Positions 3,701-43,257 of a stretch of 64,000 bases of DNA are shown piece by piece. This stretch comes from Sipunculus nudus (lineage: Eukaryota > Annelida > Sipuncula > Golfingiida > Sipunculidae): the NCBI GenBank assembly GCA_026874595.1, contig CM049318.1:25129956-25193955 (forward strand), in the 5' to 3' direction. Both the position numbers and the translations under genes were made by a program. The first letter of the stretch is position 1; each line of letters opens with the position of its first letter. The notes beneath the pieces were generated by a model. The model was not told the DNA's origin and did no database searches. It saw only the letters and a program-made list of their open reading frames with translations.

Positions 3701-3940
3701 AATTTTCAACCCCTCCTAAATAAATAAAAAATAAACCACTTTATTTGACTCTATTAATCCATCAGTCAGGTAATTTCATTTATCATTTACTCACATATTA
3801 CATTACATTCCTTTATAATAGCCCAACATGTACATGATATTCATAAGCTTTATCGACTCGATATAGTATCACAGTGGAGAAACATTTATAGTCCAATCAC
3901 GATCAGCTGAGCGCCGTGACCCATGGGTCCCTTGTTTTTT
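796..3940 (+). mobile_element. Hairpin-ended repeat family H, copy A (full length, about 3.1 kb)
   Basis: The 5' end is a near-palindrome AGCTCAG..TGACT/AGTCA..CTGAGCT at 801-829, followed by a GTCCGTCNGTCTGTC-type stretch. The 3' end holds the perfect palindrome GACCCATGGGTC at about 3918-3929 and then CCTTGTTTT. Internal blocks at 1049-1160 and 1738-1850 are direct repeats of each other. No transposase frame was found, so it looks non-autonomous. The family class is not settled. Confidence 0.7.
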
Positions 3941-3976
3941 CCCATGCATCTGAATTATGATTTGTTTGATTTCTAG

Positions 3977-8000: not shown

Positions 8001-11000
8001 CTTTAATTTGTTTATGTTCGCGAATCGGAAATAACCACAATATTTCTGAAACCCTCAGGAATAAGAATCCACACTGACTGAGATGAACAATGGGGGATGA
8101 TTCATCTTGGCAAACAGAGTAGTTTTAAAACCTCTGGAAACATGGTATGATAATCTGCAACCTGATCCATGAATGTAGGTTATGGTATCAGAATAGGCCA
8201 ATATAAAAACATGCATTGATTATTGTAAAACATACAGTTATCACTGGAGATATATTGAATGACAGTGACAGTGTATTGGGGATTAATTCTTTAAAAAATT
8301 TTATAATAAATTCAAAAATACTGCTGATTTTAAAGGTTTGTGTGGGAACGCAAAAATGACACCCTTGTAAAACGTTAAATATTAAGCCTTTGAGAAAATT
8401 TCAGCCTTGCATTTATGAAGCTAACCACAGTATTCAAACTTTGTTTCACCGTGATAACATGTCAGAAATTTGATGGATTTTATTGAAATTCACTGAATGT
8501 TTAACATTAAAATTTCTCACCTGATTTAAATCCTTGGCAAAATCTGTGTATATGTAATGAGATCAGAGGTCATGAGGCTTTTATCGAGAGTATTATGTCC
8601 TCTTGTGATGCATTCAAATGAAAACATACTCTACATACTGACAAGTATATACTGTGAAATTCTTGACTCTTATTCATCAATTTTTTAGCTCAGCTGACTA
8701 TAAGTCATCTGAGCTATAGTCGTGGTCCATTGTCCGTCGTCCTTCCGTCTGTTCGTCCGCCTGTCTGTCCGGATGTCCGTCCGTAAGACTGGCACATTTT
8801 GACACCATTGGACCTACGAATCTGAAATTTGCCATACAGTTAGATGTCCCAAAAATCTCCTACCATGCCGAAAATTGGGTCAATAGGACTTCGTTCCTTC
8901 GAGGAAAAACCTCAATTTTTTATTAGAAATCTATTTTCACACTTCAGGACTGCCTAATATCAAATCCACTCATCTGGTTTTCTTCATATTTACCATAAAT
9001 ATCCCTTTATATAGTTCCTATGTACATGCCAGAAATTAAGTCAGTATTATTTAATTTTAAAAAGTTATGGAAAATCAGGAAAGATATTTGGTCACTTAAG
9101 ACCAAAAGTGTTAAAGGTAGTGACTTTTTTTCAGTAATACAACTTTAATTGATCAAAATTTATTTGTATACCAAAAATTAGATCAAAATCTGTTAAATGT
9201 TTTTAAATATTGGCAAAAATAAAAAATTGGTTCCTTAAATTTTGCCCAAATTTGATCATGGCAAGTTTTTTTCCTGTAAGTACTGTGGATTTAATTTTCA
9301 CAGCATGTTTTTGTTAGCATTTTGTCTGTTAACACCAAAAATTTGAAACCAGTTGATCAAAAACTGTAGATTTTATTCAAGTTTTTAAGCACCATGTCAC
9401 ATCAAGTTTACATCAAGCTAGTGTTATGCAGTTTGCTAGAGCTCAGCTCCCCAGCTTCAGCTCTAAGTTCCTTAAATTTAGCATACAGTTAGATGTCTCC
9501 AAAATCCCCTACCATGCCAAGAATTTTATCACTAGGACTCAATTCCTTCGAAATATTAATGAAAAACTTCATTTTCCATTAAAAACCCATTGTTACACTG
9601 TAAGACTGCCTAATATCAAAATCACTGATCTGACTTTGATCATATATAATATACATGTTTTTCTATACATTCGCTATGCACATGCCAGAAATGATGTCAG
9701 TATTGCGTAATTGTTTTAAGTTATGGGCCCAAACATAATGCACTTTTTAAAAAATCAAGAAATATATCTACTCCCTTAACCAGAGGATTGCTGATGCTAG
9801 AGATTTTTTGTCAGGGATGTAACATTATTTAATCAAGATTCAATTGAATACCAAAAATTAGTTCTGAATGTTTCAAATTTTATAAGTTATTAGTATAAAT
9901 ATAAAATTAGTACCTTAAATTTTGCCCAACTTTGACCATGGCACGTTTGTTTCCTGAGAGCACTGTTGATATAATTTTCATATCATGCACACATTTATTA
10001 ATAAGGATTTCATCTTTGAAGTTTAGAAAGCTGAAAGAAATTGGCCAAATATTGTAGCTTTTATTAATGTTTATATGAGACCATGTCAGACCCAGGCTTA
10101 ATCCAGCCCCTCTTCAGTCACCTGTATCTTGACCTTGTTGACCTTTCATCAGATTATGCATGCTTGAGCGAAGCATATACTGGGGCAGCCAGGCAGCTAA
10201 TGCCCAGCCACAGTTGATCCCGGTGTCCAACCCAACTCATCTAGTAGTTGTTTTGAAAAACAACATAACAATAAACAATAAATTAATAATTTTGTATTGG
10301 TTTTTTATAACAAATTAAAGAAAAATTAATAGAAAAGGAATTTGTTAGTTGATGAGTAACAGAAAATTAACTTGCAGTTACTGATGATGTAAGAATCTTG
10401 TATGGATGGATAGAATGTTAATGTCAATGTTATTCCAAATAACACCATGCAGTCACCTATGGTATTTTTCAGTGAAATTTTAATGATAAAAAAATAAATC
10501 ATATTATTCATTACTTATCATTAGGGATCATATGAAGGAAATTAATGATAGACAAAGATACAGTTGATAATATTTATCTAGTTTCCTTCTGTGTCTAGTG
10601 TGTAGATTGATGTAAAAGTAGTCCAAAGTGAATATATTACATTTATTTTTTTTTAATATAAATAAAAGCCATAAAACCAGGTACTTATGATCCTTATTTA
10701 AATTTGTGAATTTTGTATATTCTGTATTGCTTTCCTGTGGAAAAAAAGCTTGCATCAGGCACAATCATTGGTGCAAAAGAAACATTGTACATGTGCTGCC
10801 TAGTGGCCATACCATGTAACTTTACAAATAAAGAATTTTAAAGATTCCAACCTTTTTGTTAATCATTGTTTCTTCTGTCATGTCACTTCTCCTTGTTTTG
10901 GAATTGCACAAAGCCATGCATTATAGTAAAGGGTAACAAACACAACTGGACTGTGTTTAATCACAGAACCAAAACAACATTTAAAAAAGGTGAACTGGTA

Positions 11001-14000
11001 AATAATGAGTCAGTGGAAAACTTTAGTATACAGCCAAAATGAACCAACAGCTTGATAAATTGCACATCATAGAGCATATGTCTATGTATCTTTTAAAGGT
11101 TGACTGGTCGTCTTCCGAGCATGAATCAGTCCAGGCCGTCCAGTGAGGAGACAGCAGCAGCTTCTAGACAAAGCGCACCACTTGCCAACCTGTCAGTTAT
11201 AGAAGAACAGTCGTTTATCGAGGACATCCCCTTCACAAACACCAAATGTTCTGGGCGACCAGCTCTAGAAACAGGTAAGATTTTCTGTTATGCCACAAAA
11301 GCAGAGGGAAAGTCTTGCTCATTTAACAGTGCTGCCACTCTAGATACTTTCTAAAAAGTAACACATTTTTTTTCAGGCAAGACTTTCTTTTACAATTTTT
11401 CAGGGTTTTATTCTTTATCATACTTTTTTACCTAAAATCCGACATCATCTACCTAAACTAATTGAGTGCAGTAGAGATGTTCTGTCAACTTTTCATAATG
11501 CTGTCATTTCAATAGCCATAAAAAAAGTTGGAACTTTCATAGCAGGACCACTTATTGGAAAGTTTGATACACGCTGTTTGATTGGCTGATTGACAAGCTT
11601 AACCAAAGTATTGACGCAGAGCCCCTGAATTTTGCGTCTCTGGAATTTATTAATACTTCCTTGGCAGCTGTAAGCCTGGCCCTTCAGCAGAGATTTAAAA
11701 CAGACTGTTGCATATTTTTGATAAAGCACTATGTAAAAAGAATATTTGATATGTTGCCTGTTGAATCAATGTTGGCACTGTAATTCAGTGCTTGCCTGCC
11801 AGTAGGCTCCTGTCAGAACCCATTGAAAGCCAGCAAAATTTGCAGCAAATAGATGGTGCTTCTCTCCACAGCTTAAGGAGTGTAGCCAGATATACTACTG
11901 TTATTTTCATACAGCTTTTGAATCAGTGGTTAGTTCTTGAATTGGGCTACAAGCATATTAAAAAGTCCATCATTAAGGTCAGTCTCGAGAGTGCTTGAAT
12001 TGGCTCTCAGTAAATTAGGCCAGTTCATTTTTGTTTCTTCAAAGTTATACAATTTGTCATAATGTCAGAAAACACAGCCAGCACTGCAGCAAATGTAAAT
12101 TCAACAACTTCTTTGTGTTATTTCAGTACCAGAAGATGATGACGGAAAGGCTCATGGTAGATCCAGCCGTAGAACTGCAGGGCTATTAGAGCTTCCAGAG
12201 GCTCTCAAAGGGAACAACAGAAGAACATCCATGAAGGCCCTTAGAGTACCTGTTTCAAAATCACTGGCAGAGACCGATGTGACTGAAAATCAGTCTGATG
12301 CTGGTTCACAGATATCATCAGAGGCTCACCATAACAAAGAAGATTCTGCAGCTATAGAAAAGGATGATGTAATAAAATCGCATGGAGATAAAGAAATGGA
12401 CGCAGATGTGGATGATTTGCAAAGTAAAGATGATGAACAAGTAATGGATACAGAACCTGCCTGGGATGATGCACAGATCCCAGATGACTTAATGCACGAA
12501 CCAATTGAAGAGAAGAAAGTCCGGAAAAAGAAACTGACAAGAAAAGAGCGCATGAGGATGCATGGTGGTGGTGATGCTAGTGCAGATGTGGACGAAGATG
12601 TGAGCACAGAATTTCCAGATGAGACACGTGAAAAGAAGAGGAAGGGGAAAGCAAAGAAAAAGGAGAAAACGGAAAGTCAAGATGAAGATGTTTATAAAGA
12701 TCCACTTGATGATGTCATGGCTGATACTGAAGACGTTGATGATGTAGAAGAGGGAAATAAAAGGAAAAGTGCTGCCAAGGTTTCCCAAGAGAGTGAGGGA
12801 AGAAGAAGAACAAAAAGACTTACAGTAAGTCTTGATAAAAAGAAAAGTATAGGTTCAGAGGAGATTATAGCAGAATCTGATAAGACCGCAACAAGTTGTC
12901 AGCCAGAGGGGTCAGAAATCATAGAACAACATGTTGACAACTTGGTCACAAATGATATGATAACTCAAGACCAAGAGAAAAAAGTGAAAACCAAGAAAAA
13001 GGACTCAAACAAGGGAATAGGTAGAGGGAAAAGGAATTCCCGAATATCCAGATCAACACTAGGCATCACAGATACAGCTGAGTTTGGGGTTAATAAAGAA
13101 GTGTCTGATGTAGAGGTAGACCTGGACCAGTTTGTTCAAGAAGCACCAAGGGGGAAAGATAAAGAAACCAGTACGGCTGGAATCAAACGAAAGACTGCCA
13201 GATCTAGAAGGGGTACATTTGTCAAGGAGCAGAATGGGCAAGAGGATGATGGTCCCGCAGCTGCTGTCCTTGAGGTTAACACAGAAAATGAAAAACAACT
13301 GGCAGGTGGCGCCAGGCGTAAAAGTACCAGAACCAGGCGAGGGACCTTTCTGGTGGAAGAGACAGGAACTTCCAAGAATATGCTTGATATACAGAGTGAG
13401 GATCATTTAAAGCCAAGTGATGCTGTCAGGGCAGTTTCAACTGAATGCATATCAACCAAAGAAAAGGAAAAGTTGAAAAGTAATAGTGATAAGACAATAG
13501 GGTCCAGATCCAGAAGAGGTACATATGTTATGTCTAAACCAACCCAAGAACTTGATAATGGCAAAGAACAGGCTAAGGAAGAAAGAGAACATGTTGAAGA
13601 AAATATATCCCAAGGCAGTACTCATCGGGTGAACTCCAGTCAAGGTACTTATGTTTTGAAACAGCCAAACGACAATAAAACACCTCCAATTGCCTTATCA
13701 GAAATAACTGACAATGTAACGCAAAATACTAACTCATCACCTGTGAAAAAGGCATGTGCTGGAGACCATGTCAATATGGAGACCCAACCAAGTGCCTTAG
13801 ACAGTACCTGTTTAGATACTTTGGACATGGAGATGACGGAAGTGGTAAACTACAGCGCATTTGATGTTCAGGCAATGATGGAGAAGCTGAGGAAGACAGA
13901 AAAGGACAGCAAAGATGCTTCCAAAGAAACAAAGGTGTCCAAGGAGGATCAGCAAAAATCAAAAGATGCTGAAGCTGGTGATGGCAAGAAGCAAGCAGAA

Positions 14001-17000
14001 AATAAGAAAACCAAGCTGGATGTTGATGAGGGGAAAGATTCCAAAGAGAAAGGTGAAAAAGGTAAGGACAAGGCATCCTTGAAATCTACTGACAAGTTAG
14101 CAGCTGCTCAGAAAAGTCAAAGTAAAACCAGCTCTACAACCACTAATGGTGTCAGTAAAGCACCAAAAGGAAGGATACCTGTCCCTACAAGAACATTATC
14201 ATCGGACGAGGAGCCGGCCGGTGGAGCTGCCAAGTTTTCTGTGTTCTCCTCGAAGCCTGGCAGGCTGGTCTTCACAGTTGGTCGACCTGATCTTGCTCAG
14301 ATGATGAACAAGAAAACTAAAGTTAAATCTACTTTACCTAGACCTGTCTCTCGTTCTAAGCAAAGGACTAAAACTGCCGAGGTTCCAATTATGTTACAGT
14401 CTCCTGAGACAGGGCCCAAAGGCGTTTTTCAGTTCATAGGTACTCCACCAGGTGGAGCAGCTGAGGGCCAAAAGAATGTTTATGATTTATCTATGAATGA
14501 GTCTGCTGTGCAGCCAAATGTCAGGGAATTTAAAAAGAGATGTTCAATGGTAGTGGATGGAGTATTGACAGAGGAACAACCAGCTGTTGTAGAACAAGAA
14601 ACGTTGACGATGCCTGACTCAGAGGAGCTATCAGAGAGTCCACACGGCATCATGCTTGTCTTAGGTAATGGCCGGCGAACAAAGCCACGGGCTAGGAGCA
14701 AACAAGTATCATACGCAGAGAAGTTAGCACAGACAAAACTGACCACCCCAGCTCAGACTCCACAAGTCACTATTGCTCCTGAGGGGGCCCCTGATGTGTC
14801 TGGTACTCCCACTAAACCTGTTGTTACAGTTACAGAGGATGCTCCAGGTGTTAATGCAGAAACTCCAGTGATGGTGAGTGGATCATGTATTAACATGTAA
14901 TTTATGAAGCACAGTGGACCTATGAATAGTATTCAGCTGAAGAACATGTTCAATATTGTGAAACTCTGGATGAATTGAAATATTTACCTGCTTTATCTTT
15001 AAAATTAATGTGATTTCTTGCTGTGTGCATATTGAATAACTTAGTAATTCCTGCTAAGAAAGGTGTTTATAATGCCTCTGTGACGTGTGTATTACCCATT
15101 TTACCTATAAACTGTTTGTTAACACGGTGCATGTTGATAAACAGGAAAAACAAAAATGAAGGTGGTTGATTGCATATGTACAGAAGCTTAAAGGTCAGTA
15201 GATGCAAAAGGCCATTTGCAGAACTCTAGTTCTTCTGACTTGCTGCAAGGTGTCATTGTTGAATATCTTTGGATTAATTTGGCTGGAACCCAATTTGTTA
15301 TGAACAAATTTGCTGTGCAAATTGTACAGCCTGTGAACCATGGGATCAACATTTTCAGGCCGTTTTTATGAAAGGTTCAAAGGATTGCCTTTAGATAATT
15401 AATGTCAGGTATTGGAAAAGGCCCTTTAATATCAGTGATCATATAAGTAGTACTTAACAGTAACTAACAACTACAGAGTAAAGTTTATGCATAGTAAACA
15501 TACACAATCAAAATCTGCAGTGTTGACACATTTTCTAAAATAGTCAGTATGATATTATGTTTAAACAGACTGTATGCATGTCATCATCAGCCATTACAGG
15601 TCCATAAAAAATGTAATCTGTGGTATGTTTAGATTTATTTTTTTCCCAAGTTAAAGTGTTTCCATTGAAATCACTTGTTTCTTTTTTCAGTGTTTTGCCA
15701 GTTACAGTTTAGGTGCTAGGTTAAGTACAGTTAAAGAATCCCATATCCCTGTTGGTAGCTATTTAGCAGGTGATTTAACAGCCATTTAACAACATGTAAT
15801 CAGCATCAGGGTTTATTTTAACAGGATACAGGAGATAACCCAGAAGAGAATAAAGATGATGAGGTGACCACAGAAGTAAGGTCACCCACAGCTGCAGCGG
15901 AGAAAAAGGTATTCCATACACTCCATTCCACATTTAAAAGCTATAAGACACCAACAAGATACAACATTCCAGACAGGGTCTTTGAAATATGTAATTTATT
16001 AATTACATGCCATCAACTGCTTTCTATTTTCTGTGCTTTCTGTGCCTCAATTTCGCCATTATTTCTTTGAAAGTAAAATTCGGGACTGAAATAATATTAA
16101 GGCTGCTGCTGGCAAAATGTGAGAACTACTGACTACACCATGGAACCCCCAAAAGGCACACTCGTTGCTGATTGAAACACAACTGTTTGCACAAAGTTTA
16201 CCCATTAAGCCTGCAGAGCGCTAACCCTGAGAGGGGCCAAGGATGAAAAACTTACCGCTGTTTGGCTGAGATACAATCTCCAGGCTTTGAACCAGGATGA
16301 ATGGAAATCTTCAAAAAGAAAAAGAATATACTTGACAAGAATTATTCTAGAGTAATCTGTTTCAGATTTGGATACTGAGGCTTCCATGTTATATATAACA
16401 ATGTAAGTTTCCTGTCTTTGATTGGTTGTTCTTGCATTTTCAGAAAAGAAAGGAACGTCCATGGGAAGGCAAAGAGAAGGAAGCTGTCAACAGTGAAGAA
16501 AAACTGGAGGCACCAGCAGAGAAAAAGGTATGATAGCTAAACCATATGACAATCATCCATGTCAATCTGCTGATTTTAGCAGCAACCCTGCTTCTTGTAT
16601 CTACTTGCAACACCTCTGGGTTAAAAGTGGTGTCCATGTTATCAGTTTTATTGAAGATTTGTCATTTTCTGTTATAATTGATTAAATTGGTTTTGTTTTT
16701 TGCACAATCAATCACAAAAGATTATGTTTGTTCACACAAAGAAATCAAATTGACCAGAAATCATATTTTAATCCAGTGAGAGATATAAGAAAGACGGACA
16801 CAATTTTTCAAATTAGTGAACAACATAAAACTAAACTTTTGCATAGAACAACTGTCAACAACTTGGCAACTATCTTTACCTGTCGGATTGATGTACAAGT
16901 CACACTGATTTTACCATGTTAATATTGTAGGTATTGTTTTTTGTAAAAGAAATTGCATGGTAATATAGAAAGGACATAAATGAAAGATTAGTAATCATTT

Positions 17001-20000
17001 ATATGTTGTTTGTTTTCTTTCAGTCATTGAACATGATTTTACAACCCAATATTGATCACTAGTTAAAGTTCTTGCAAATATTATCAGTTATAGTTACAAT
17101 TACTAGGGTAAATTTCTGTTAAAGTTGCAGACTGTGTTTGCAAATATTTCAAATACAGTAACATGTTAGAGAAATATCAGTCATTTTCTGTTGCCTTCTA
17201 CTTTTTATTCAGAGTGATCATTTAGTCACCATCTAATTTTTGAGATACTATTATCCCATAGCTCCAAATGAATAAAACAGATGATTGTTCACATTAATGA
17301 TGTTCATATACTCTAAGCCTGCTTGGTAGAACAAGCGAGAGCAAGATGGACTGAACTTAAGTGCAAAATTGAGATGACTGAAAAGAGACAGTAAAGACTA
17401 GATGTAGGAATCAGTTGTAAAATCATACTAGAGGATTGAAAGTTTAAAAGTGACTAATGATTGATTAATAATTAATCATTTGATGTATCATCTATATTTC
17501 AGTGAAAAATCTCTAGAGAATTATACTTTTGTACATCATGCTGCAAGGTCTAGGTATTATCGGGGTTGTTGACGCTTATTTGTTGCACAAGGTTAATGGT
17601 GTCTGCTGTTTTGTGACCAGTCATTCTTATATCTCTGTAGGAATAAGAATATTTTAGCAGGATAATTTGACTTCTTTGGATGTGCTTATGTAATTGTTGG
17701 TGATCGATTATGCAAAAATGCAATCCATTTAATCAGTTATGAAAGTTAACAACCAACATCGATATAATTAATTAATTGGCACACCACTGGTCAAGACCAA
17801 AAAAATATTTTAATTAATTATTGAGTCTTATATTAGTGTCCATGTAACGTATTCAGATAACTCTAAAGATAAATTAAAAGAACTTTCTGGAAGTAGAGCC
17901 TTATCATCAGTGATAAATCATATAGCATATTAAAATCATCAGGTGCATTTGTAATAATTTTTGTGACTTTCATTTATTTCTTTAGTGACTTTTTTTTAAT
18001 GTAAATATATTTTATAGAAGAGAAAGGAGAAGCCAAGGGAGACAGCTGAAGATGTGGAAGCTCAGGAGGAAGTTGCTGAAGCAAGTGAAGATAGGAAGGT
18101 GAGGGACTGTATGCTGTTAAAAGTTCTAATGAGGACAAGCAAACCATATCAAAACTATATGATCATCATATAGCAACAGTCCTGAAAGAGATTCAGTTAA
18201 CAGGGCTCAAATGACTAATTGATCATTGGTAAACTCCAGTTCAGCTTTTGTTTTAGTTGACAGTGATAATTTAGAATTGACTAGTGTGACATTAGATTCC
18301 ACAATGGACAGACAGCTCAGCAAGTGGAGAATTATAACTGTTTTTGTTTTTCCTTGTTATTATTTACTCATAAATTCAAAGTAGGTACCGGTAGCATAGG
18401 TCAATTCTTCTACACCATGACGCCCTAAAAAAACATGAATATGCTTATATATAAGTACAGGAACAGAACAGTTTAATGACTGTAGGTGATTTGGGACACA
18501 CTTCCTCAGAACTTAATTACAATCCTGTGTTCATGCATATTCAATATTTTATCCTGAATTTTACCATCAACATGTTCATTTAACATTGTTAAAAGGGGTG
18601 AGTATAATCTGATTTTACTTTCAGTTACTTTTTCGTTATTGGACAATGTACCTGTCATTCAAAACATTGCAAACACCTGCTGATAAATGCTTTCTAATGA
18701 CATTTCAATGTATGACATAACCTTACAGAAATGATCATTTATTTTTCACTATTTAGAAACAAAAAGACAAGTCACTTGGTGCAAAAGAAAAAGAACCTAT
18801 GGATCATGAGAAACGATGTGAGGTACCAGCAGAGAAAAAGGTATGAAAGCAGAAACCGGGCTGCCACTTCATATATTTATCAAACTATGCTGGAAGTTTT
18901 AGGTGAAAATTGATAGTTTCACTTTGATTGCAATGATATCTAGGATATACCAGTCTTTCTTTTATAGCAAGGGTCTGAATTTGAAAAATAGTCAAATTTT
19001 ATCAAGGAAAAATAACTTAAGGGTAATTTTCTTTCATTGTTAGTCCATTCTGTCCACTTACCTGTCCATCTGTAAATTTTTCATATGCATCACAGTATCT
19101 CAAACTTTTCTTGAAGAAAGTAGGAGGGCCCCTCTTCCTCTTAGGTTCTCATATGCATATATAAATGAAAAACATTACAATAGAATATTTTGCATTTGCA
19201 AAAATTTCAAACTTCAGCTGAGCGCTGTGACCCATGGGTCCCTTGTTCTTTCACTAAGATTATATTATTTGTCAGAAAATAACTTAAAAAAAGTTTCTCA
19301 CTGATCTCCATCATTTCCATTCCAGGGCACCAGCATAATGTTTGATAATTAACAGGCTCTGCTTCTAGATTATTTAATGTGGCACTGCCCATGAATGTAT
19401 CTTATTCAGCACATAAATTAGATTCAAAGGAAAGATTTGCTTGGTATTTTGCAAAGGTAGGATAAGAGAGCATATGTTGCTGTCACAGTCCTATCCCACC
19501 AGACTTTGGGAATTTGTTGTAAAATCTTGGTTTTCCCAATTGGGAATTAGAAAGCAACTTTTCAAAATTTGTGTCAAATTCAAATTCTTTAAGAAACTTG
19601 GAAACCAAACATTTTGAAACATGTGTTAATCTGACTTTATAGTTGTAATTACATTTTATCCATTTTAACCTAAGTCACAAAAGGTTAGGACAAGGGAGAT
19701 TGTATGAATGTATACATGCATGTTTGCATATATATATGTGTGAACCTGTTGCTCAGAAACTACAGTGCTGTCATTGTCACCTGAAAATACCTCAAAAGAT
19801 CAGCCCCAATGATATCCCAGTCTTCCTAGAAGGTTATCTGGATCCAAAATCCTCATACTAGTATTCAAAAGGTAAAAAAAGCAGGGTGCGAAATAACACC
19901 TTTCTTCCTGTCTCAGGTAAACACGTGCACAGAAAAGCATTTTTCATTTTGCTAGAAAGATGAACACCTAGATGTTTTCTACATTAGTAGTTGATAGGTA

Positions 20001-23000
20001 GTAACAAACATGAATAGAAAAACAAAACATTTTACAGGTGGTGTTCCACCAACTCCCTATATTTTCCAAAAAAGATGGTCTGTAGTTTCTTTTATTTTCT
20101 GACATCTCCTTTATTTTTCCCTGCATAATCGTGTTTCTGATATAACAGTTTTACTGTTTTAACCATTCAGTTCTTTTGCATGCTAGAATGCATGTAGAAT
20201 GGGATGTTAGATGGCAGACTCAGGTTTACACTTAGCGAAGTGTGACTGAAAGTCCGATATAATGGAAGGATGCATCTTAAGCGGAGAGGCAAACCTGAAA
20301 AGAGTATAAATGTTTAGTTTACTCTGCACTCCCCAAATGGCAGTAAAGTGAGGGTCTTCAGTTTTGACTGAATTTTTTTATTGATAAATATCTTTTTGTA
20401 GAAGAAAAGGGAGAAATCCAGGGAAACAACGGAGGCTGTTGAAACTCATGAGGAGCCATCTGATGCAGCTGAGGAGAAAACGGTAATCTATGGTTGGCCT
20501 ATAAAGATCTAGCTATGTGAATGGATACTCCTGGTAGTCCACTGCTGGTGTAATTAAAACTTTTGTATCTTAATCAGTTGTTGTAATTGATATATATCTG
20601 GTGCTTTATTATAGCAACAGTGTGATATTCTTCTTTTTTTTTTATTTAGAGTGTCTGTGATGAAATTTTGTAAGTACATTTCCACCAAATCCTTCCAGGT
20701 GCTACCAACTAGTATAGATTTTATGTGTATCATACAGAATTCTAGTAAGAATACAGTACTTAGTAAAATTTTGCATTCTGTTATTTGGATATCTGCTATC
20801 TTTCTTGACATTAAAAACCAAGGGTTATATATGTGTGGAAACCCACTGAGTGAGCAATGAGTGCAAATATTTGGTCATTGTGGCCCAACAACTTTTAGAT
20901 GCCCTTCTTAACAGACCTTTTCCATGAGCATGCGCACTGCAAGTAACTGTCATCTACTTGGATTGGTCCTTTGAACCCTAATTGAGAGCTCTGATAAATT
21001 AAAACAGACAAGTCACAAACACAGACAGGACCCCAACCTAGAGTGATAAGACAAGATTCTTTAGCTTTCATCATTTCAGATATGGCAATTGGCCTCTTTT
21101 TCGTTGATATAACACACCCCAAATGTTAGATTTTTTTATTTGCTACTTTCAGATGTTTCTAGTGTGATTGAAAAGGTGTATTGTGTATTCACACCCAGTG
21201 CCCATGTTCAGATATTCCATTGTCACTCTTGGGGACATTTATCTCATGTTAAAATTTTAATAGGAATTTCTGGATGAATATTCAAGCCAAATAGCCTCAT
21301 GACCTTACCGACTGGCTGTATGTTTTTCAAATGCCTGCGCAAAGTACTTGGCAGCCTACAGTTAAAACCCAATGTATCCAATTAATAAAAAAATGAATTA
21401 TTTAGAAAATAGTAAATAAAAGTCTCACTGTTTTCCAGAAGAGAAAGGAAAAGCAGCAGGAAATCAAAGCCAAAGGAAATGTGAATCACCTTGACATATG
21501 TGAAGCACCTGTGGAGAAAAAGGTGAGACTGTTTTGTCAATAACACTTTTAACAGGGCTTCCGACAACTCCATAATATATACATGTATATCCTATATTTT
21601 TATATGAAAGAAATATCTCTTACAGTTTCTTATATTTTCCAGCATTTATGCCTTATCTACTATAGTCAGTCATGCATGGTTCACTGCACATTTATATTTT
21701 CAATGTAACTTAATATTGCATAATTATTGTTATATACCCAGTAGACTATTATTTGAAAACATTCAGCTCTTATGTAAAACTGTGCATTTAAGTGTTGCAG
21801 TCATATATATACAGTTATCTGGACCATTTTTAGCTCAGCTGACTATAAGTCATCTGCGCTATAGTTGTGGTCCATTGTCTGTCGTCTGTCCGTCCGTCCG
21901 TCCGTCTGTAGGTGTGACACATTTTGAAACCGTAAGACCTAGGAATTTCAAATTCAGCATAATGTTAGATGTCCCCAAGATCTCCTACCAAGCTGAAAAC
22001 TGGGTCTTTGCGACTTTGTTCCTTTGAGAAATTGAGGAAAAACCTCAATTTTTTATTTTAAAAAATCTTCACTCTTCAGGACTGCCTAATATCAAAACCA
22101 CTCATTTGTTTTTCCTGATATTTACCATAAATATTCCTCTATATAGTTCCTATGTACATGCCAGATATTAAGTCTGTTAAGTATTAAATTATTTTAGTTA
22201 TTAGCATAAAAAATAAAATCAGTACCTTAAATTTTGCCCAACTTTGACCATGGCACGTTTCTTTCCTGTAAGTACCTTTGATTTAATTTTCAAAGCATGT
22301 AAACATGAATATTTAATTTGTTTATACCTAAAATTTGAAAATATAAGCTTGAAAATTAAGTTAGTTATTGATTTTTTTCTTGAGGCTCTATTGTAGTCAT
22401 TTCCTTTGATGACAGATTACAGATGCAGGGTCTCACTCCAGATCACTGGAAGTCAGCTATGCCCAGGTTTCTGATTTGTTATAGTCGCTGGGGGAGATCC
22501 CCTGCTGTGACAGGTGTACAGTTATTCTCATATCACCATCCCAATCAACCCCCCCCCCCCCCCCCCCACAAACCCAACCCACCAAGTGTTACGCAGTAAT
22601 TGTTATTGTTTTTACTGTATCTCCTTAATTGTAATGTTCTTTCTACTTGATATGCAAAAATATTCCTTGGAAAAGTAATTCAAGGTGTAATCCAGAAGAT
22701 GCAATGTTGTTTAATGTAGCATTTTTAAAGAAATCAGTTTTCTTTTAAATGATTTTAACAAATATAATTGAACCCGTTAGTATGCTTAAATTTATAAAAT
22801 ATGAAGCACATTATGGATAAATAAAGACACAATTAAAAATTGTGAAATTTAAATCAAGTATTATTTTCAGATATTTATTGTTTTGCATATTTAAAAGATA
22901 TATTTTTGTGGTAAAAAATCAATAATCATTTGTATGCATGATGTGGTGTTATCTGACAAGATTGAGATTTATGATGATGCAATTGAGAATTATGAATCAA

Positions 23001-26000
23001 CTTTTATATTCAGATATATATGTTATATTGGAAATGTATAGACTTATATATATAAGTTTAATATATAAACTTAAATTTTTAAAAAAATTGATGTGATAAA
23101 AAATGAGGATTTAATACAAATATTTGTTCATTATTTTCCTGAATCAGCAGAATTTGAGATCAAGCTTTGTTTGCCCTGTTTTATGTTGTTAATTAGTTAT
23201 ATTTCAACTGTTAACATTTCATAAAAAAAAATACATAAATATTTAATAATATATATTATACAAAATAATAGATTCAATTGAACAAATGTGTAAACTACTT
23301 AAATGTCAACAGTTAATCAAAAAGCCAACTAATGATCATGGTAATAGTACAGATAATTTGTTCACAAACTGCTCACATGCTTCAGTTTCAACATTAGGAA
23401 ACACATGGTCAGGTCAAAAAATATTATTTGCAACAATTTCTTGCTCATCAATACAAACCAATCATATAAACCAACCATGGCCTTTATTACCTCTTCCTCT
23501 TACACTTTATCGCCATTTGATATTATTTTAGATTTTTACATTCAAGGTCAATTTCAGCTGAGCACAGTGACCCATGGGTCCCTTGTTTAAAAATAGACAA
23601 TTAATTGCTGCTGATAGTCATGGTAAGTGACTCAGCAAAACTCAGTGGTGCAGTGATTTATTTTACCTATATTTCTGGCTGAGAATTGTATATTCCTATA
23701 CAAGTATTTAGCCCTCAAGTGCTCATATAAAAAAAAATCTTAACTCGCAGTCATATCAAATTTGATAAAATGTGACTAACATTAGACCAAAAGCACTTGA
23801 GGATATTACTTTTATGAATATTGTATATTGTGCATTACTCTATTGTATTGACAAGTCTTGTGCTATTGTTATTATGATGGTTGTTCTCATTTGGTCATTT
23901 TTTTTTTTTTAGAAAAAGAAAGAAAAGGCAAAAGAGAGCACAGGAGACCTTGTTAAACCCTCAGAGGATCAATCAGTGACATCAAAGGACAAAAAAGTAT
24001 GTCATGGTTACAGGGCGCTTGCAGTTTAATTTGATTCCAGGGCATTGAGTATCCTTCAAAATATCACTCCTTCTGAACATCTTCAAAGGCCTTGAATTTC
24101 ATAGTCAAGAATGACTTTCATTTCACTCAGTTTGATACAAACTTTATGTGCATGTTATAAGCTGTGTGTGTGTGTGCAGGGCTGCCATATTGTTCTTTTT
24201 AAAGATTTACTTATAATTATGCTAATTTTTTGTCATCCTCTTTTTTCACCATTACATTTCCCCTCTCTTTTTCAGTGATAGAGTTTCTACATATACTATT
24301 TCTCTCATGCTATAACTGTCTATTTAGTACAACATGGGACACTTCAAATTTTAAAAATGTCCTTAATTTCAGGCAGGGTCAGGTCCTTTTTTAGCGAACC
24401 TGTGAGCTTATGCGATGGTGTGGCGTCGTCCGTCGTCTGTACTTTAACCTATAGTATCTTGAAAAAGGCAAGAGTTAGCATCACGAAATTTTATGCAAAA
24501 AATTAGTCTTCAAAAAAACTCTATCAGATTTTGCTTATTTTTTGGCTAATTGCATTTTCTTAGATTTTATAGGGAAAAAGCTAAAAAAGCTTTAAAAATC
24601 TTCTTCTCTGAAACTGTTCAGCCAAAATGATTCCTAGAACAATCTCTCTCAAGTTTGTTCGAGTGGTTTAAGTTCGGTGATTTTTGGCCAAGTTACAGGG
24701 AGTTGAACTTAGTCATCTGTCCAAAAAAGCATACTAAAATTACAATCTCAGAAATGGCTGGAGCTATCATCACCAAATTTTATGCCAATGTTGGTCACAT
24801 GAGTCATATCTGAAATTGAGGTATTGGTGGCGCCACCTGCATTGGCCTTTTTTGTACGGGGGTCATCAGTGCCCCTATCATACTGACTGCTACAAAAAAC
24901 TTCTTCTCTGAAACCATATGGCCAAATTGTTTAATATCACACAGAAATGATCCTAGGGTAGTGCTTTCTGAAATTTGTTCAAATGGTCTCAGTACAGTGA
25001 CTTTTGGCTGAGTTATGGGAAGCTGAATTAAGTCATATGCCATAACAGCCCATTTTAGCTCAGTGGCTACAAAGAACTTCTCAATAACTACTTCGCCAAA
25101 TTCTTAAATCTCACACATAAATTATCCTTAGATGTTGATTATTCAAGTTTGTTCAAATGGTTTTGGTTCAGTAAATTTTGGCTGAGTTATGGGAAGCTTA
25201 ACTTAACCATTTTGCTGTATTTTCCCATATGAGTTATAAACCTGCAAAACTTTTTTTGACTGACGCCACTGAGGCAAATTTGTTTAATATTTTACAAGAA
25301 TGATCCTCTGAATAATTCTTATAATAAGTGTCTTTTATGGTTCCAAAGAATGAATTTTGGCTGAATTATAAAGATTGAATTGAGTCATTTTACCATATAT
25401 GTTAGCTGTGTGAAGCAGATACATCTAGCCTTGCACCAGTTTATCAGCAGCCATTACATAATGCCTCTAGACATTTAGATTTCAGGTTATCTATGGTTAA
25501 TATTGACAAGAATGTTTTTTAAAAGCTTTTAAAAGATGTAGATTTATGCTAAATAAATGCTGTGTTTACAATCACAGGTATACAGCTCTCTGTGGGTATA
25601 TAAGGACGGCTGTACATGGATTATAAATAATTGGTATCCATACTCAACTTTATTCAAGATTTTGCCATCAGTGAGATGTATCTGTATTATAATTTTGCAT
25701 TCAGTATGCATCTGTAGTATTTTTAGAGAACCTGTGAGCTAATGCGATGGTTTTGCATCGTCATCATTAACCCATACTATTTCGAAAACAACTATTGCTG
25801 GTATCATGAAAGTTAATGCAAAAAAAAATTAGCCATCTGTAAAAAACTCTGCATTTTCTTAGATTTTACAGAGAAAAAGCTAAAAAAACCTTTAAAAATC
25901 TTCTCCTCCAAAATAGTCAAGCCAAATTGTTCAATATTTCACAGAAATAATCTTTTATACCATCTCTCTCAAGTTTGTTCGAATGGTTCAAGTTTGGTGA

Positions 26001-29000
26001 ATTTTGGCCGAGTTACAGGAAGTTAAACTTAGCTAACTGTCCAAAAAAGCATACTAAAATGGCAATCTCAGAAACGGCTGGAGCTATCATCACCAAATTT
26101 TATGCTATCTGCATTTACTTAGTTTTTATAGGGAAAAAGCTGAAAAACCTTTAAAAGTCTTCTTCTTGTAAACGGTCCAGCCAAATTATTACAAAATATT
26201 ACAAAAATGATCCCAGAGGCAAGCCCTTTCAAGTTTGTTCAAATGGTTTGCATTTGATGAATTAAAGTGGTGTTACACAAATTTGAACAGTCATTTGGCC
26301 AATTAAGCATACTGATATAGTAATCTCAGAAATGACAGAAGCTAGCACTACCAAGTATTGTGTAAGTGTTGTTCACATGACTCATATTTGAAGTTACAGA
26401 TTTTGTGGTGCCATCTACATTGACCTGTTTTTTATTAGCAAAAACCTCGTAATTTTAGCCTCTTTCAGCATAAATTGTTTATGATGAAACTGTCAAGTTG
26501 AATCGTTCAATTTTTCAAAAGAATTATCCTAGGACATGGTTCTTTCAATCATATCAGAAAAGCTTAAGTTGGTCTTATGGCCATTATTATGTCTATTTCA
26601 AACTGAGGACTGCAAAACTGTTCTTCTACAAAATTATTGATTCAATTATAACTTCTGTAACATTGCAAAAAAAATTATTCTTAGGTGGCCTTTGTTCAAG
26701 TTTACTTGAATTATTTTTGGCAGAATTATTGGACCTTTAACAATGAAAGAACTGCATCTTTTGTTATTTAAGATATTTTGATAATAAGTTTATGAATATG
26801 TCAGTTTTAAAAAAATGCATTTTAGCCAAAGTCTTTCAGTATGTGTAAACAGATTGACCAACAGACCAAGATTGTGTTAGTATCTTTTAATAGGTTGAGA
26901 AACTGCTAACTGTTTCTGATTTGGCAACAGATCAAAAGTTCATTCAGTGCCGTTAGATATAGGTCAAGAGTTCAGTCTGCAGCCAAGCACAAGGCATGTG
27001 ATCACCTCATGGGTAACATTTGAACACCTCATGGCTACCATGTGATCACCTCATGGGTGTCATGCCCCTCAGGGCTGCATGTGGACAACCAACTGTGTCA
27101 GATTATTCAACAGGTCAAAGGTTCACTCAGTGCAGCCAGGTACAGGTCGAAAGTTCACTCAGTCTAGCCAGGTGCAGGTCATAAGTTCACTTAGTGCAGT
27201 AGCCTGAGCCAGCTAGCAAATTTGTCACAGTTCACTCAGGGCAACTGCCTTTCTCACCTAAGCCTGGTCAGCCCCATGTATCAGACTGAGTGTAAGTTTG
27301 ATGTATTGGCCTAATATTATGACCAGTCTATGTGTCTTTGATGGCTTTCTCGTTCACAAGACAGGTGTCGCCACCTACAATGACTTTTGCACAGTGTATG
27401 TGCCTGCTTATTTGAACAGAGGAATTTGATATATCAGCCTGAAATTGGGCATATGTATATATCTCTGATAGTTTTGTTGTATACAAGACTGGTGGTGCCA
27501 GCTACAATCACTTTTGTGTTGTGTCCACCCATGCCAGAATTTCAGCAGTGATGTTTGTGTAATTGTTTCTTATTCAAAATGTTTAGTACTTGCATTGTTC
27601 ATGTACATGAGAAGTAATGGTCCAGCATTGAAGCATTATACCTGGTGTATTTCCTAATGCACAGGTTCGCACTAGGCCTGTAGGCCTTGTTGCAATTTAT
27701 GAAGCACATCTTTTTTCAGTATATCATTAAAAGAAATGGAGATTATTTGCTGATTATATGCTCTTTTCACTCCTATATTCAGAAAAGGCCACACTTTTTT
27801 TTAGAACACTATTTCTCCTTCTTTTTTAGACATTTTCCTATGGCAGGCATATAAGACATTTTAACATTATATATCATGGCATGTGTAAGACATCATTATA
27901 TATTGTAGCACACAAAAGGGAAAGGAAAGAGGAAGACTGTAAGTAATGTGAAGGTAGTTGTTGAGGCAGCTCAGGAGGATGGGCATGACCAGGTGGACAT
28001 GGAAGAGGCGCCACCTGGCAGTAAAAACCTATCACCAATACCCAAAAGTCATGTCAACCAGCAGTTGTCATCGGCATCTGTTGAGAAAGACAGAGGAAAA
28101 ACAAGCACTGACAACTTATCTGAACCACAAAGGTTTGTAGTCATACTATTATCGAATCTGTAATGAGCAGTACTGTGGTTATCTTCATATTTGTTCGGTT
28201 ATTAGAGATCAGGTTTTGGAATAGGCCTTTAAATATCATCATATATTTCTGATACTGCATTACTAAATTATCACCAATTGTCTACAATATTGTCTGGTAA
28301 AACCTTTGATACACCCCAAGTAAGCAAGGGCCAAACACTAGCTCCTGTGGTCTTTGAGTAGAGCATAAGGCTCAAAGCCAGGAGATTGTGTCAAATCCCA
28401 GCAGAGGTGGTGAGATTAATCACGGTTGCCCCCTCCCAGAGAGAGCACTCTGCAGGCAAAAAGGGGAGTCTGTGCCCAACAGTTGTGGTTCACTTACAAA
28501 CAAGTGCACCTTTAGGGGGATCCTCTGGGTATGACCAATCAATTGGGATGACACACACCCAGGACCTGTAGGAGTGGTAAAACAAGCCTGGGTGATGCCA
28601 GGATTATTGTGTGTAAGCCCCTGTCATGTATCCCAAAACCAGAATGGAATCCTGCAGATTTACATAGTGCTAAGTTAAGCAAGCATTAAAAAAAAGAGGC
28701 GGTTACCTCCATCCTTAAAAAAAAAATTAAATAAAAAAAGCAAGGGCTAAACTCACACAGACAGATTCCATCTGATTATTTAATCCATATAAAAATTGTA
28801 AAGCATACTTATTGAAGGATGGAAGTGATTACCTCAAGTGATGGAAAAATTCTTTTTGAAGATACTTTGTATTTATAAATTTTTTGTTATTTAGTGCATT
28901 GGAGGAAGATCAGCCTCGACGACGACGACGAGGAGCTGTTATATCATATAAAGAACCAAAACTTGGCGCGTAAGTGTGATTTTGATAATAAAACTTCATG

Positions 29001-29681
29001 CCAGTCTGAATAAGTTTGCAAACAAGAGTTCGTTTGTTGTTGAAAATTCTTGATTAAAAATTACTAAATTTTCAGTTTGAAGGTCAAGTGCCTGAAAAGT
29101 TAATGAAGCTTTAGAAATAAATCCGAAATAAAATAAAAATTATTTTAATTTTAAAATTAGATATATCTGCAACATATTGAAGAATTTATATTTATAACCA
29201 TAAAATGTTCAGCAGCTTTTATAACTTGTATATTTATTGATTTAGAAATTAACATAAAATGTTTTATATATATATATAATTTTTTTTTTAATATTAACTA
29301 AGGACAACCCATTCTATAATTCTCAGAATGTAAATGCTCAGTGTCAGGAAGTTATAAAGTTTTCTGATGTATTTTGTAAAAAAATCCTGTAAAGATTCAT
29401 GAAACTTGGAAGAATGTTAATTCTTTCAAATTATATGAACTTTTCATAAATGTGCAACTGAAAGAAAAAGTGAAGGTAAATTATTTGTATTGTGACTGGT
29501 TTTAACACACTTCCCAAACCTTTGACCATAATTTTATTCTCCCATTAGAAGTGATTATCCTTGATTATTCGTTAATCTTTTGTTATCTAGGAAGCTCCGT
29601 CGAGGCGACCCAGGCACCACTTCCATTTATAATAAAGATGATAACAGCAAGAAAAGAAAATCTGGCAGAGATGACAGCTGA
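3977..29681 (+). CDS. SGO1: Shugoshin (centromeric cohesin protector), 5'-incomplete
   Basis: Shugoshins recruit PP2A to centromeres and shield cohesin from premature removal in mitosis and meiosis. Fifteen coding exons join in one frame: 3977-4130, 6293-6510, 7655-7911, 11099-11274, 12127-14873, 15825-15908, 16444-16527, 18018-18098, 18757-18840, 20402-20482, 21439-21522, 23913-23996, 27909-28132, 28895-28969, 29591-29681. They total 4524 nt, or 1507 residues plus TGA. Residues about 52-124 form a Leu/Gln-rich coiled coil placed as in the SGO N-terminal domain. Residues 1461-1482 carry the SGO C-terminal motif: a run of Arg, then V-x-S-Y-K-E-P-K-L and K-L-R-R. The middle is long, charged and low in complexity, as is usual for the family. 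The first visible exon opens in phase 0 without a usable start, so the initiator exon is missing. The SGO1 versus SGO2 name is uncertain; an invertebrate single-copy shugoshin is the likeliest reading. Confidence 0.88.
4290..4405 (-). mobile_element. tRNA-derived SINE, body fragment
   Basis: GGGTGTGTCATCCCCATTGC TGGGTCATA matches the body of the SINE at 43500-43755. The tRNA-like head is not recognisable. Confidence 0.5.
5014..5701 (-). mobile_element. Possible solo LTR in a (TA)n tract
   Basis: Begins TGTTGCC and ends GGTAACA, the TG..CA ends of an LTR, with (TA)n on both sides. Read on the minus strand, an AATAAA lies about 55 nt from the end. A target duplication cannot be judged inside the microsatellite. 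No internal retroelement genes were seen. Confidence 0.4.
6293..6510 (+). CDS. SGO1: Shugoshin exon 2: coiled-coil domain
   Basis: Encodes visible residues about 52-124, including SNNQALARKLQQTLQELQL and further Leu/Gln heptads. In known shugoshins this parallel coiled coil dimerises and binds the PP2A-B56 holoenzyme. Acceptor is ATTGCAG and donor is GTCAGT. Degenerate copies of its 3' end lie just downstream (see the repeat at 6598-6845). Confidence 0.85.
6598..6845 (+). repeat. Degenerate tandem copies of the 3' end of shugoshin exon 2
   Basis: The exon sequence GGCAGAGGTCATGCGAAGGG TCAAGGTCAG near 6484-6515 recurs at about 6652-6684 and again, weaker, at 6813-6845. The spacing is 161-168 bp. 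Copy 2 also keeps CCAACAGCAAAATG. Stops break any frame, so these are non-coding relics. Confidence 0.65.
7265..7500 (+). repeat. Dispersed repeat of the 'gaccacctttagtgaccacc' type
   Basis: Contains CTAACGACCACCTTTAGTGA and GAGACCACTTTATCG. Similar gaccac/gtggtc sequence occurs at 32595-32756, 49198-49361 and 62459-62604. Element class not determined. Confidence 0.35.
7655..7911 (+). CDS. SGO1: Shugoshin exon 3: end of coiled coil and Ser/Gly/Arg-rich linker
   Basis: Begins ETNREIQQGLNELSLSMM, which completes the helical region, then turns into an Arg/Ser/Gly-rich low-complexity linker (GRGSSGSHASRISAGRNSGS). The acceptor follows a very long T tract (7632-7649). The exon ends in phase 2 at GTCAGT. 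Confidence 0.82.
8685..10260 (+). mobile_element. Hairpin-ended repeat family H, copy B (no recognised 3' end)
   Basis: The same palindromic 5' end and GTCCGTC stretch as copy A, with the same two internal repeated blocks (8931-9060 and 9594-9740). The GACCCATGGGTC end was not found, so the right boundary is approximate. Confidence 0.65.
10261..11098. other. Shugoshin intron 3, distal part
   Basis: AT-rich intron sequence with short frames only. I see no gene or clear repeat here. Confidence 0.5.
11099..11274 (+). CDS. SGO1: Shugoshin exon 4, with an LxxIxE-type motif
   Basis: Opens in phase 2 after TTTTAAAG and ends in phase 1 at GTAAGA. Encodes a Ser/Ala-rich stretch and then NLSVIEEQSFIEDIPF. 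LSVIEE (11190-11207, visible residues 241-246) fits the L-x-x-I-x-E pattern bound by PP2A-B56 regulatory subunits. That suits a shugoshin, but the binding role here is inference. Confidence 0.8.
12127..14873 (+). CDS. SGO1: Shugoshin central giant exon (Lys/Glu-rich, Arg-Arg-Gly-Thr repeats, destruction-box motif)
   Basis: A 2747-nt exon encodes visible residues 269-1184. It starts VPEDDDGKAHGRSSRRTAG and runs through acidic/Lys-rich stretches. It holds recurring basic motifs of the type R-x-R-R-G-T-F/Y-V (near 13200, 13330, 13510; a weaker one near 13640) and a very Lys/Asp/Glu-rich part at 13880-14080. RPDLAQMMN at 14283-14309 matches the R-x-x-L-x-x-x-x-N destruction box. Acceptor is TTATTTCAG; donor GTGAGT follows ATG in phase 0. 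Past the donor the frame reads a few intron codons to a TAA at 14898, which I treat as read-through into the intron. Confidence 0.85.
15119..15425 (+). repeat. Dispersed repeat family Y, copy 1
   Basis: Aligns by eye to 47040-47340 in the same direction: GATAAACAGGAAAAAC, GATTGCATAT, GCAAAAGGCCATTTGCA, CTGACTTGCTG, CTCAAAGGATT-type block and GGCCCTTTAA. It lies in the intron after the giant shugoshin exon. Confidence 0.55.
15825..23996 (+). CDS. SGO1: Shugoshin array of seven 81/84-nt exons
   Basis: Seven small phase 0-0 exons: 15825-15908 (28 codons), 16444-16527 (28), 18018-18098 (27), 18757-18840 (28), 20402-20482 (27), 21439-21522 (28), 23913-23996 (28). From the second on, each starts with a Lys/Arg cluster such as KRKEK, KQKDK or KKREK right after the acceptor. 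Most end in a basic pair, as in PAEKK, before the donor. A 28-codon type (ending PAEKK or PVEKK) alternates with a 27-codon type (KRKEKPRETAEDVEAQEE; KKREKSRETTEAVETHEE). This looks like repeated duplication of an exon pair encoding a charged linker. Exons this short are easily missed, but their shared size, phase and ends support each other. Confidence 0.78.
16136..16296 (-). mobile_element. tRNA-derived SINE fragment
   Basis: Shares TTAAGCCTGCAGAGCGCTAA, GATGAAAAACTTACC and GGCTGAGATACAATCTCC with the SINE at 43500-43755. The tRNA-like head, on the minus strand, is partly kept. Confidence 0.55.
16528..18017. other. Shugoshin intron between array exons
   Basis: AT-rich sequence without a recognised exon or repeat. 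A further 27-codon array exon would be expected near here if the exon-pair pattern were perfect; I did not find one. Confidence 0.4.
19042..19248 (+). mobile_element. Hairpin-ended repeat family H, 3'-end fragment D
   Basis: Matches 3077-3290 of copy A (TAGTCCATTCTGTCCACTT, GTAGGAGGGCCCCT, AACATTACAATAGAATATTT) and then jumps to the GACCCATGGGTCCCTTGTT end. It is an internally shortened copy. Confidence 0.65.
21827..23588 (+). mobile_element. Hairpin-ended repeat family H, copy C (about 1.8 kb)
   Basis: Has both ends: TTTTAGCTCAGCTGACTATA at 21827 and GACCCATGGGTCCCTTGTTT at 23569-23588. Only one of the two internal repeated blocks is present (22073-22180). A C-run lies at 22551-22567. Confidence 0.7.
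24393..26800 (+). repeat. Array of degenerate 'gtgagcttatgcgatgg' repeat units
   Basis: Two heads (GAACCTGTGAGCTTATGCGA at about 24398 and GAACCTGTGAGCTAATGCGA at about 25728) are followed by units of about 150-200 bp. Each unit has a variant of CTTCTTCTCTGAAAC, GCCAAATTGTT, AGAAATGATCC, CAAGTTTGTTCAAATGGTT and TTTTGGCTGAGTTA. At least seven units are visible. This resembles a repeat common in bivalve genomes. Confidence 0.65.
26930..27240 (+). repeat. Short tandem repeats ('caggtcaaaggttcactcagtgcag')
   Basis: Units of about 40-45 bp at 27108-27205, with TTCACTCAGTGCAGCCAGG recurring. Before them are three copies of a CATGTGATCACCTCATGG unit (about 26995-27060). Confidence 0.6.
27909..28132 (+). 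CDS. SGO1: Shugoshin exon 13
   Basis: Follows TATTGTAG and opens HTKGKGKRKTVSNVK, again with a basic cluster at the exon start. It continues through an acidic and Ser-rich stretch to LSEPQ and ends in phase 2 at GTTTGT. This start keeps the frame; the AAAG a few bases further in would give an early stop. Confidence 0.72.
28341..28695 (+). mobile_element. tRNA-derived SINE, near full length
   Basis: The head GCTCCTGTGGTCTTTGAGTA followed by GAGCATAAGG looks like a decayed A box, and GTGTCAAATCCC like a B box. The body includes GAGAGCACTCTGCAGGC. Read in reverse, its later part matches the CCATTGCTGGGTCATA core of the other copies. It ends before an A-rich stretch. Confidence 0.65.
28895..28969 (+). 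CDS. SGO1: Shugoshin exon 14: core of the SGO C-terminal motif
   Basis: Encodes ALEEDQPRRRRRGAVISYKE followed by PKLGA. Five consecutive Arg codons (CGA CGA CGA CGA CGA) precede the V-x-S-Y-K-E-P-x-L core, the diagnostic C-terminal box that in studied shugoshins binds histone H2A phosphorylated by Bub1. Phase 2 in, phase 2 out. Confidence 0.9.
29591..29681 (+). CDS. SGO1: Shugoshin last coding exon
   Basis: Completes the SGO box with KLRRGDPGTT and ends SGRDDS-stop. TGA is at 29679-29681, and a GTAAGT donor follows at 29684, so an intron probably interrupts the 3' UTR. The stop sits only about 2 nt before that donor, too close for it to be expected to trigger nonsense-mediated decay. Confidence 0.82.
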
Positions 29682-41400: not shown

Positions 41401-43257
41401 AAACCTGAGATGTCCGAGTTCCTATAAAGTTCAACATAGTTTTCTCACCATACTGACGAATCTTTTTATGATCGACCTATAATATTGCTACTTCTGTCAT
41501 TTTCTTTCCAACATTAAATTAGCTCATTCATAATAGATATGAATTTAAAACTGCTTTACGATTTTAAACATTTCACTTTTAAGTTATGAAATTATGAATA
41601 TCAAATTATATTCTCGATGCACAAAATGATTAGGTTAAGAATGTTATATACTAATTTCGGTGAAGAATTTTGAGAAAAAAGATCAGAAAATTATAATTTG
41701 TGACATTGACATGTCCGGGTTCATTACATACAACAACGTTACTTTCTTAATCTAGCTCTCCCCTGCCCTGCTTACTTCACACACTTCCCGGAACTTGGCT
41801 CGTGCTATAAACTACCGCCCTCTGGTTTTGAGAACATCAACGCCAGTAACGCTAAAGAGACATGCAACGACCAAGGGGGATACCCGATACTCCTTCAGAC
41901 ACCGATGGAAATGTCAATCGTCAACGCCACATTAGGTACGTTATAAAGGTGCTATAATTTGCCACTACATTTATTACTTTTTGTTATGAGTTCATTTTGG
42001 TTGAATTTAAACTTTTTTTTTGCGAAACTACCATGGCTTACATGTAGGGTGATTGTCTGTTTCACCTGTTTCATACATTGTTTTGGTTCTGTGTTGATAA
42101 ATGCAATCCAGGTTTTATTTTTCAATTATAGAAAGACCGCTAGGGTAAGGTACAAAATAGCGCATGCGCAAAAACTTACCATCAACCAAAGATGAATGAT
42201 GTATATGTCATGAATTACAAATTAATGAGATATTTTTTACTGTTGTTGGCCGCCATTATCCTTTAATTCATTATATGTTATTGCAGGACGTTATGTTTAT
42301 GTTATTATTCACGCCACTGGTTGCGGCTTGTACAAGTTTATTTCTACTATATATAGGCATGAAAAACTGGATTTAGAACGAAATCTTGCCAGATACGATC
42401 ATATGTCCATAAAAAAACTGTGAATGTTATTTATACCTAAAAGGCCTAGTAAATGATGGAAACCTTTTAAACCAGAGTAGGACGTTGGGGAAAAAGGTTT
42501 TTTTTTCAAATAACAGTTTTATCCGAAACCCTTTTCCAGAAACCCCTTTTTTTTTTAAAAAAAAATCATAAAGTTTTTTACCGTGAAGAAACCATAAAGT
42601 ATACACTTATTCAAATCTGGTAAAGTACGTTTTTCTGATGGTATTCATATTTTTTACATTTTCATTTATTTTATGATGATATTTTAACATTTATATTCCT
42701 TTAAATTTTAAGAATGTCTCTATTTTAAGCACCCAGTAGCAGTAAGCCATTTTCAGTGGACTATTATTAAACTACATGACAAAATCTAAAAAAAAAACGT
42801 AATTTTATTTTTTCTCTACTGTGTGTCTTCTAGTTGAAAAATGAAAGTTCAATTTAACGATATTGTCTTTTCATAATGTCCGTTAATGTCCGAATATCCC
42901 TTAATTGAAATATAAAGTCAGCTTCTATATGCATATCAGTGGCTCCTACCCAGGAGGTGTACTGGACGGGAGGGAGGATTGTCAGTAACGGAGCGAATGT
43001 TGCCGCCACGTGGGTCGCCGTAAATGAAACCATTGATCCAGACCTTTGGGATGCAGCCGACACCTGGCCTGTAACAGCAGGTGACTGTGTACAGGTAGAC
43101 GCTGGAGGGCTGAAGTCTAGAGGCTGCAGCAGCAAGGCACAGCTGATGTGTGAACAGCAACCGAAAATCACGTGTGGCACCCTCAGCTGCTTAGATCCTA
43201 CGTCTGAAAGTAAGAATTAATGATGACGTAAGCAATTATCATACTTACTGTTAATAT

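Follow-up and report, generated by a model that had tools for sequence, protein, structure and literature searches.

How was the middle part of a shugoshin lengthened in the annelid Sipunculus nudus, where seven tiny exons lie between the large central exon of the gene and its C-terminal SGO box? The gene is located in a stretch of 64,000 nucleotides (nt) of contig CM049318.1 (positions 25,129,956 to 25,193,955), hereafter called the window. Shugoshins are guardians of chromosome cohesion, which bind histone H2A in its phosphorylated form and shield cohesin at centromeres. Apart from their ends, they have little in common (PMC5134366), and the lengthening of their middle part is rarely visible; here, its steps can be read from the exon structure. 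With a probability of roughly 0.7, the exon sequences point to an old expansion of an exon pair, preserved in the order ABABAB in the last six of the seven exons (E2 to E7), which would have provided this shugoshin with a disordered, charge-patterned spacer in front of the SGO box.

Seven symmetric exons in front of the SGO box

The C-terminal SGO box identifies the gene as a shugoshin. When joined, its last exons match the Pfam family Shugoshin_C (PF07557) with 35.8 bits (cut-off 23.3, E 6.8e-9), which bears out the identity assigned in the initial annotation. The array in front of the box covers positions 15825 to 23996 on the forward strand, and the reported succession of seven phase 0-0 exons of 84, 84, 81, 84, 81, 84, and 84 nt was fully reproduced. 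It begins with E1 (15825-15908, 28 codons), which has an acidic start and is of unclear type. Type A comprises E2 (16444-16527), E4 (18757-18840), and E6 (21439-21522), each with 28 codons. Type B comprises E3 (18018-18098) and E5 (20402-20482), each with 27 codons, and E7 (23913-23996), which belongs to this type by sequence and has 28 codons. As the initial annotation stated, any of the exons can be removed without a change of frame (7 of 7 symmetric).

All seven exons score as coding in terms of codon usage. A codon score, for which the large exon and non-coding sequence served as opposing training sets, gave in-frame values of 26.0, 25.8, 35.7, 21.5, 36.0, 12.3, and 20.2 for E1 to E7, and both other frames scored lower in every case. 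The 35 pseudo-exons of 81 or 84 nt (AG, open frame, GT) from stretches taken as non-coding reached a mean of -13.1 and a maximum of 4.3, below each of the array exons. Since background and null overlapped in sequence in this first test, it was rerun with disjoint stretches, both ways round; the lowest array exon then scored 13.5, compared to -0.9 (n = 20) or 5.1 (n = 13) for the highest pseudo-exon. The match of the donor sites to MAG|GTRAGT was 6 of 9 positions for E1 and E5, 7 of 9 for E2, E4, and E7, and 8 of 9 for E3 and E6. The exon following the array (E8, 27909-28132), which begins with HTKGKGKRK, was considered as an eighth module and rejected (highest Z against any module 1.34).

Two exon types and a 55-residue charge period

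The exons E2 to E7 alternate between the two types. The split of A versus B received a FastTree support of 0.988 and was recovered in 1956 of 1999 bootstraps with column resampling. Among the ten possible splits into three and three exons, it ranked first by protein Z, nucleotide Z, and protein identity; simple nucleotide identity failed to recover it (rank 5 of 10). The exons are thus related by descent, as expected for a tandem exon-duplication array. The alternation of 28- and 27-codon types described in the initial annotation is confirmed for the order of the types in E2 to E7, but not for the lengths throughout, as E7 is of type B yet has 28 codons. E1 is not clearly a member of the array by its sequence and is regarded as a leader exon of unclear kinship.

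The same arrangement is visible in the encoded protein. Read through, the array encodes 194 residues, 10 of them prolines, with a charged fraction of 0.55 and a net charge per residue of -0.01. In all six modules E2 to E7, the first 12 residues are net positive, followed by a net negative part that extends to the last four residues. A start with a Lys/Arg cluster, originally ascribed to every module, was accordingly found in E2 to E7 and not in E1, and the basic pair said to end most modules is present in most of them, with E5 ending in KT. At the exon junctions, the end and start clusters fuse to basic patches (AEKK|KRKER, AEKK|KRKEK, EDRK|KQKDK, AEKK|KKREK, EEKT|KRKEK, and VEKK|KKKEK). The charge autocorrelation reached 0.71 at a lag of 55 residues compared to 0.36 at a lag of 28, whereas the maximum in 5000 shuffles over lags 20 to 69 was 0.41. 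The super-period of 55 residues is exactly the sum of A (28) and B (27). The ABABAB order and the 55-residue charge repeat therefore point to the exon pair as the amplified unit.

Between copies of the same type, synonymous changes have approached or reached saturation. For pairs of same-type exons, the NG86 method gave nonsynonymous distances (dN) of 0.30 to 0.47 (6 pairs) and synonymous distances (dS) of 1.31 to 3.18 (4 pairs; not computable for 2 pairs). The duplications of the array are probably old, because the introns are unlike each other and the synonymous sites are close to or at saturation.

Further copies of the module were searched for in the window and in the whole genome. Profiles built from E2 to E7 themselves found no additional copy among 2895 open reading frame pieces of the window, apart from three stray matches at E 0.46 or worse. 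In the genome of S. nudus (1,426,538,692 bases in 153 contigs), a query consisting of the array and the start of the next exon was matched at least eight times with E values of up to 1 (match counts are lower bounds), and all eight matches were exons of the same gene. Within the limits of these searches, neither a second array nor an intronless copy was detected.

The duplicated unit and the use of the exons

The introns lend no support to duplication in pairs. Among 28 pairs of introns around the array, only two reached z ≥ 4.0, each z value resting on only 30 shuffles. The six intron pairs predicted to be alike by this model had z values of 2.0 (i2-i4), 0.1, and 4.0 (i4-i6) for introns following A exons, and of 0.2, 0.7, and -1.2 for those preceding them. 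The likeness of i4 and i6 was rejected as a trace of duplication, as it falls on the end of a dispersed repeat also present at 3904; that of i6 and i7 (z 5.2) was rejected likewise, as it involves AT-rich stretches (77% and 69% AT). In the exon flanks (21 exon pairs, two sides and two lengths, 84 comparisons, the eight best of each list considered), the lowest p-value was 0.011, uncorrected; it belongs to a same-type pair, E3 and E5 (upstream, 40 nt), and was not taken as a signal. A relation by descent, as a recent duplication would leave it, was thus not found for the flanking introns. Intron lengths alternate, with 1490, 1561, and 2390 nt after the A exons and 535, 658, and 956 nt before them, but this was set aside as evidence for pairs, given the inverted arms in i2, the dispersed repeats in i4 and i6, and one repeat match in i1 as well. 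The unit of exon, intron, and exon proposed in the initial annotation is consequently upheld for the exon pair by the A/B split and the 55-residue period, but not by the intron alignments. A lack of similarity above chance in introns and exons, which had been named beforehand as speaking against the proposal, was observed for the introns and not for the exons.

Several repeats lie in and around these introns. Dispersed pieces that are 79% to 95% alike, some of them in shugoshin introns, were found at 3903-3941, 19214-19252, and 23550-23588, and a further set at 783-1168, 8682-9056, and 21810-22194. The intron between E2 and E3 contains inverted arms (16626-16803 and 17611-17788, about 178 nt, 70% alike), perhaps the remains of an old transposon.

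Copying of the exons one by one, with the A and B types arising from later divergence or gene conversion, would fit the introns, which do not support a paired unit, and a perfect periodicity is disturbed by E1 and by E7, whose length is unusual for its type. However, the ABABAB order and the charge period of 55 residues argue against single copying, after which the closest relatives would usually be neighbours, and we consider it quite unlikely. Even less likely is that the Lys/Glu make-up of the modules is no feature of the protein but follows from the purine-rich splicing signals of very small exons. The purine content of the array is 74%, which no more than 6% of the 84-nt windows in the large exon attain, compared to 61% in the other coding exons. 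The Lys pattern may partly stem from splicing, because AAG, the terminal codon, also agrees with the consensus for donor sites. On the other hand, A/G differences between same-type copies, counted where both copies carry a purine, were most frequent at third codon positions (19 of 124, 22 of 99, and 40 of 100 at positions 1, 2, and 3; that is, 40 of 100 against 41 of 223 for the first two combined), which argues for constraint on the amino acids. All within-type differences numbered 50, 58, and 93 at the three positions. Although the same exons enter several of the pairs and the counts are not independent of each other, they suggest that the amino acids have been held after duplication, beyond the effect of a purine-rich composition alone. 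Mutually exclusive exons, with one A and one B exon or one exon of a group per transcript, are hardly probable at all. Such exons are often linked to tandem exon duplications (PMC9013439), but they fit poorly here: the two types are interleaved, the sequence is charged and poor in hydrophobic residues, and the junctions rebuild basic patches, all of which would rather indicate additive use.

Purine-rich sequence would favour exon inclusion in the manner of splicing enhancers, which bears on another explanation, namely a spacer tuned by splicing. Tissues or germ-line stages would then use different numbers of modules and produce long and short shugoshins, comparable to a rheostat of the titin type. 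The symmetry of all seven exons, each of which can be skipped in frame, the comparatively poor donors of E1 and E5, and the precedent of splicing in the PEVK region of titin are in favour of it. Exon duplication alone already predicts this symmetry, however, and the purine content of the array would promote inclusion, so that a spliced rheostat appears doubtful. Its more specific form, an adjustable ruler, is unlikely: zero to three A-B units would be included, altering how far the histone-reading box lies from the parts that bind PP2A and cohesin and how strong the electrostatic grip between them is, for example, in mitosis versus meiosis, all from one gene.

In the favoured exon-pair expansion, an ancestral unit of two exons, A with 28 codons and B with 27 (28 in its final copy), in the order A-intron-B or B-intron-A, would have been copied in tandem to yield E2 to E7 as ABABAB behind the leader E1. 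With phase-0 borders, every duplication would have added residues and left the frame intact. All seven exons would be spliced constitutively, and the array would link the central region to the SGO box as a flexible, disordered spacer of polyampholyte character. Such a spacer might set the reach of the protein and provide weak multivalent electrostatic contacts to nucleic acid or chromatin, with the SGO box at its far end as the putative histone-reading part. A frame-neutral exon pair would thus have been copied, its copies seemingly being kept under amino acid constraint, and the array permits a direct test of the importance of linker length or charge pattern in a shugoshin.

Comparison with known systems, gene model, and neighbouring features

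The closest parallel in construction is the PEVK region of titin, in which one motif corresponds to one exon. Its PPAK motifs comprise 26 to 28 residues (PMC9100103), and in mammals the region has grown by exon duplication, with blocks duplicated or triplicated and 113 annotated exons in humans (PMC6469411). In both cases, many exons encode a charged region, disordered in titin and probably so in the shugoshin, with motifs of about the same size (PMC9100103, PMC6469411). Unlike the proline-rich muscle spring with its 113 human exons, the array described here belongs to a centromere protein, has six clear copies, and contains few prolines. It may be regarded as analogous to PEVK in construction; kinship in sequence is not claimed. 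As in tandem exon duplications in general, exons of a single gene have been duplicated in situ (PMC9013439); the difference lies in the copied unit, an exon pair, and in the apparently additive rather than mutually exclusive use of the copies. With vertebrate SGO1 and SGO2, the protein shares the C-terminal SGO box, including an SGO1-type KLRRGDP continuation, which is the same in human SGOL1 (table of PMC5134366). A region beyond the coiled coil of these vertebrate shugoshins is predicted to be unstructured (PMC9253516), which likewise resembles the proposed spacer. In contrast to the present gene, an exon array is mentioned for neither SGO1 nor SGO2 in the portions of the literature covered (PMC5134366, PMC9253516). 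The words "exon", "repeat", and "mollusc" are absent from a 2016 survey of 32 shugoshins (PMC5134366), and a limited search of the open-access literature revealed no shugoshin with a comparable exon array. The mechanism is ordinary; its location in a shugoshin is unusual.

In the gene model, a single open reading frame runs across the junctions of all exons on the forward strand to a stop codon at 29681. Including a probable first coding exon (6154-6235, MLSKIKSKKRL...), placed by its in-frame join to the next exon, the protein has 1483 residues, with the array at residues 1161-1354 and the SGO box from residue 1437. The first coding intron (6236-6292, 57 nt) is apparently of the GC-AG type; a frame-keeping GT donor was not seen in an inspection made partly by eye. 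The next exon (6293-6510) encodes an N-terminal coiled-coil-like segment at the position where shugoshins have their PP2A-binding coiled coil. Its similarity to human SGO1 (chain 3fga_D) was not significant (shuffle p 0.11), no Pfam family scored above its cut-off, and a phmmer search against the PDB up to E 1 returned no shugoshin chain. Two exons (7655-7911 and 11099-11274) connect this segment to the large central exon (12127-14873), for which no Pfam family matched up to E 1. Downstream of E8, the exon at 28895-28969 encodes the beginning of the SGO box (RRRRRGAVISYKEPKLGA), and the last coding exon (29591-29681) contains its end (KLRRGDP...) and the stop codon. The SGO box alone gave no match in a PDB search. 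A six-frame search with Shugoshin_C found no match in this genome or in any of 14 control genomes and is uninformative; the box was probably missed here because an intron lies inside it.

The large central exon carries spaced motifs (window 13190-13670), RSRRGTF, RTRRGTF, and RSRRGTY as well as the related SSQGTY, at residues 603, 646, 705, and 749. They resemble a series of basic sites for Aurora-type phosphorylation. The protein matches [FY]xF at one place only, FQF at residue 1012, within FQFIGTPP (window 14420-14450), and the pattern is so short that one match proves nothing. FQFIGTPP resembles the YxF-type cohesin-binding motif of vertebrate SGO1 with its nearby TP site (PMC10279526).

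Elsewhere in the window, C-type-lectin-like stretches lie at 42909-43220 (E 0.029) and 45159-45647 (E 0.005), one of them with an EGF-like end (E 0.72), all below the Pfam cut-offs. A 51-nt tandem repeat with 10.8 copies and 90% matches (51793-52341) is located within an open frame (51732-52838), in which it encodes a Thr/Ser-rich repeat of 17 residues followed by a hydrophobic segment.
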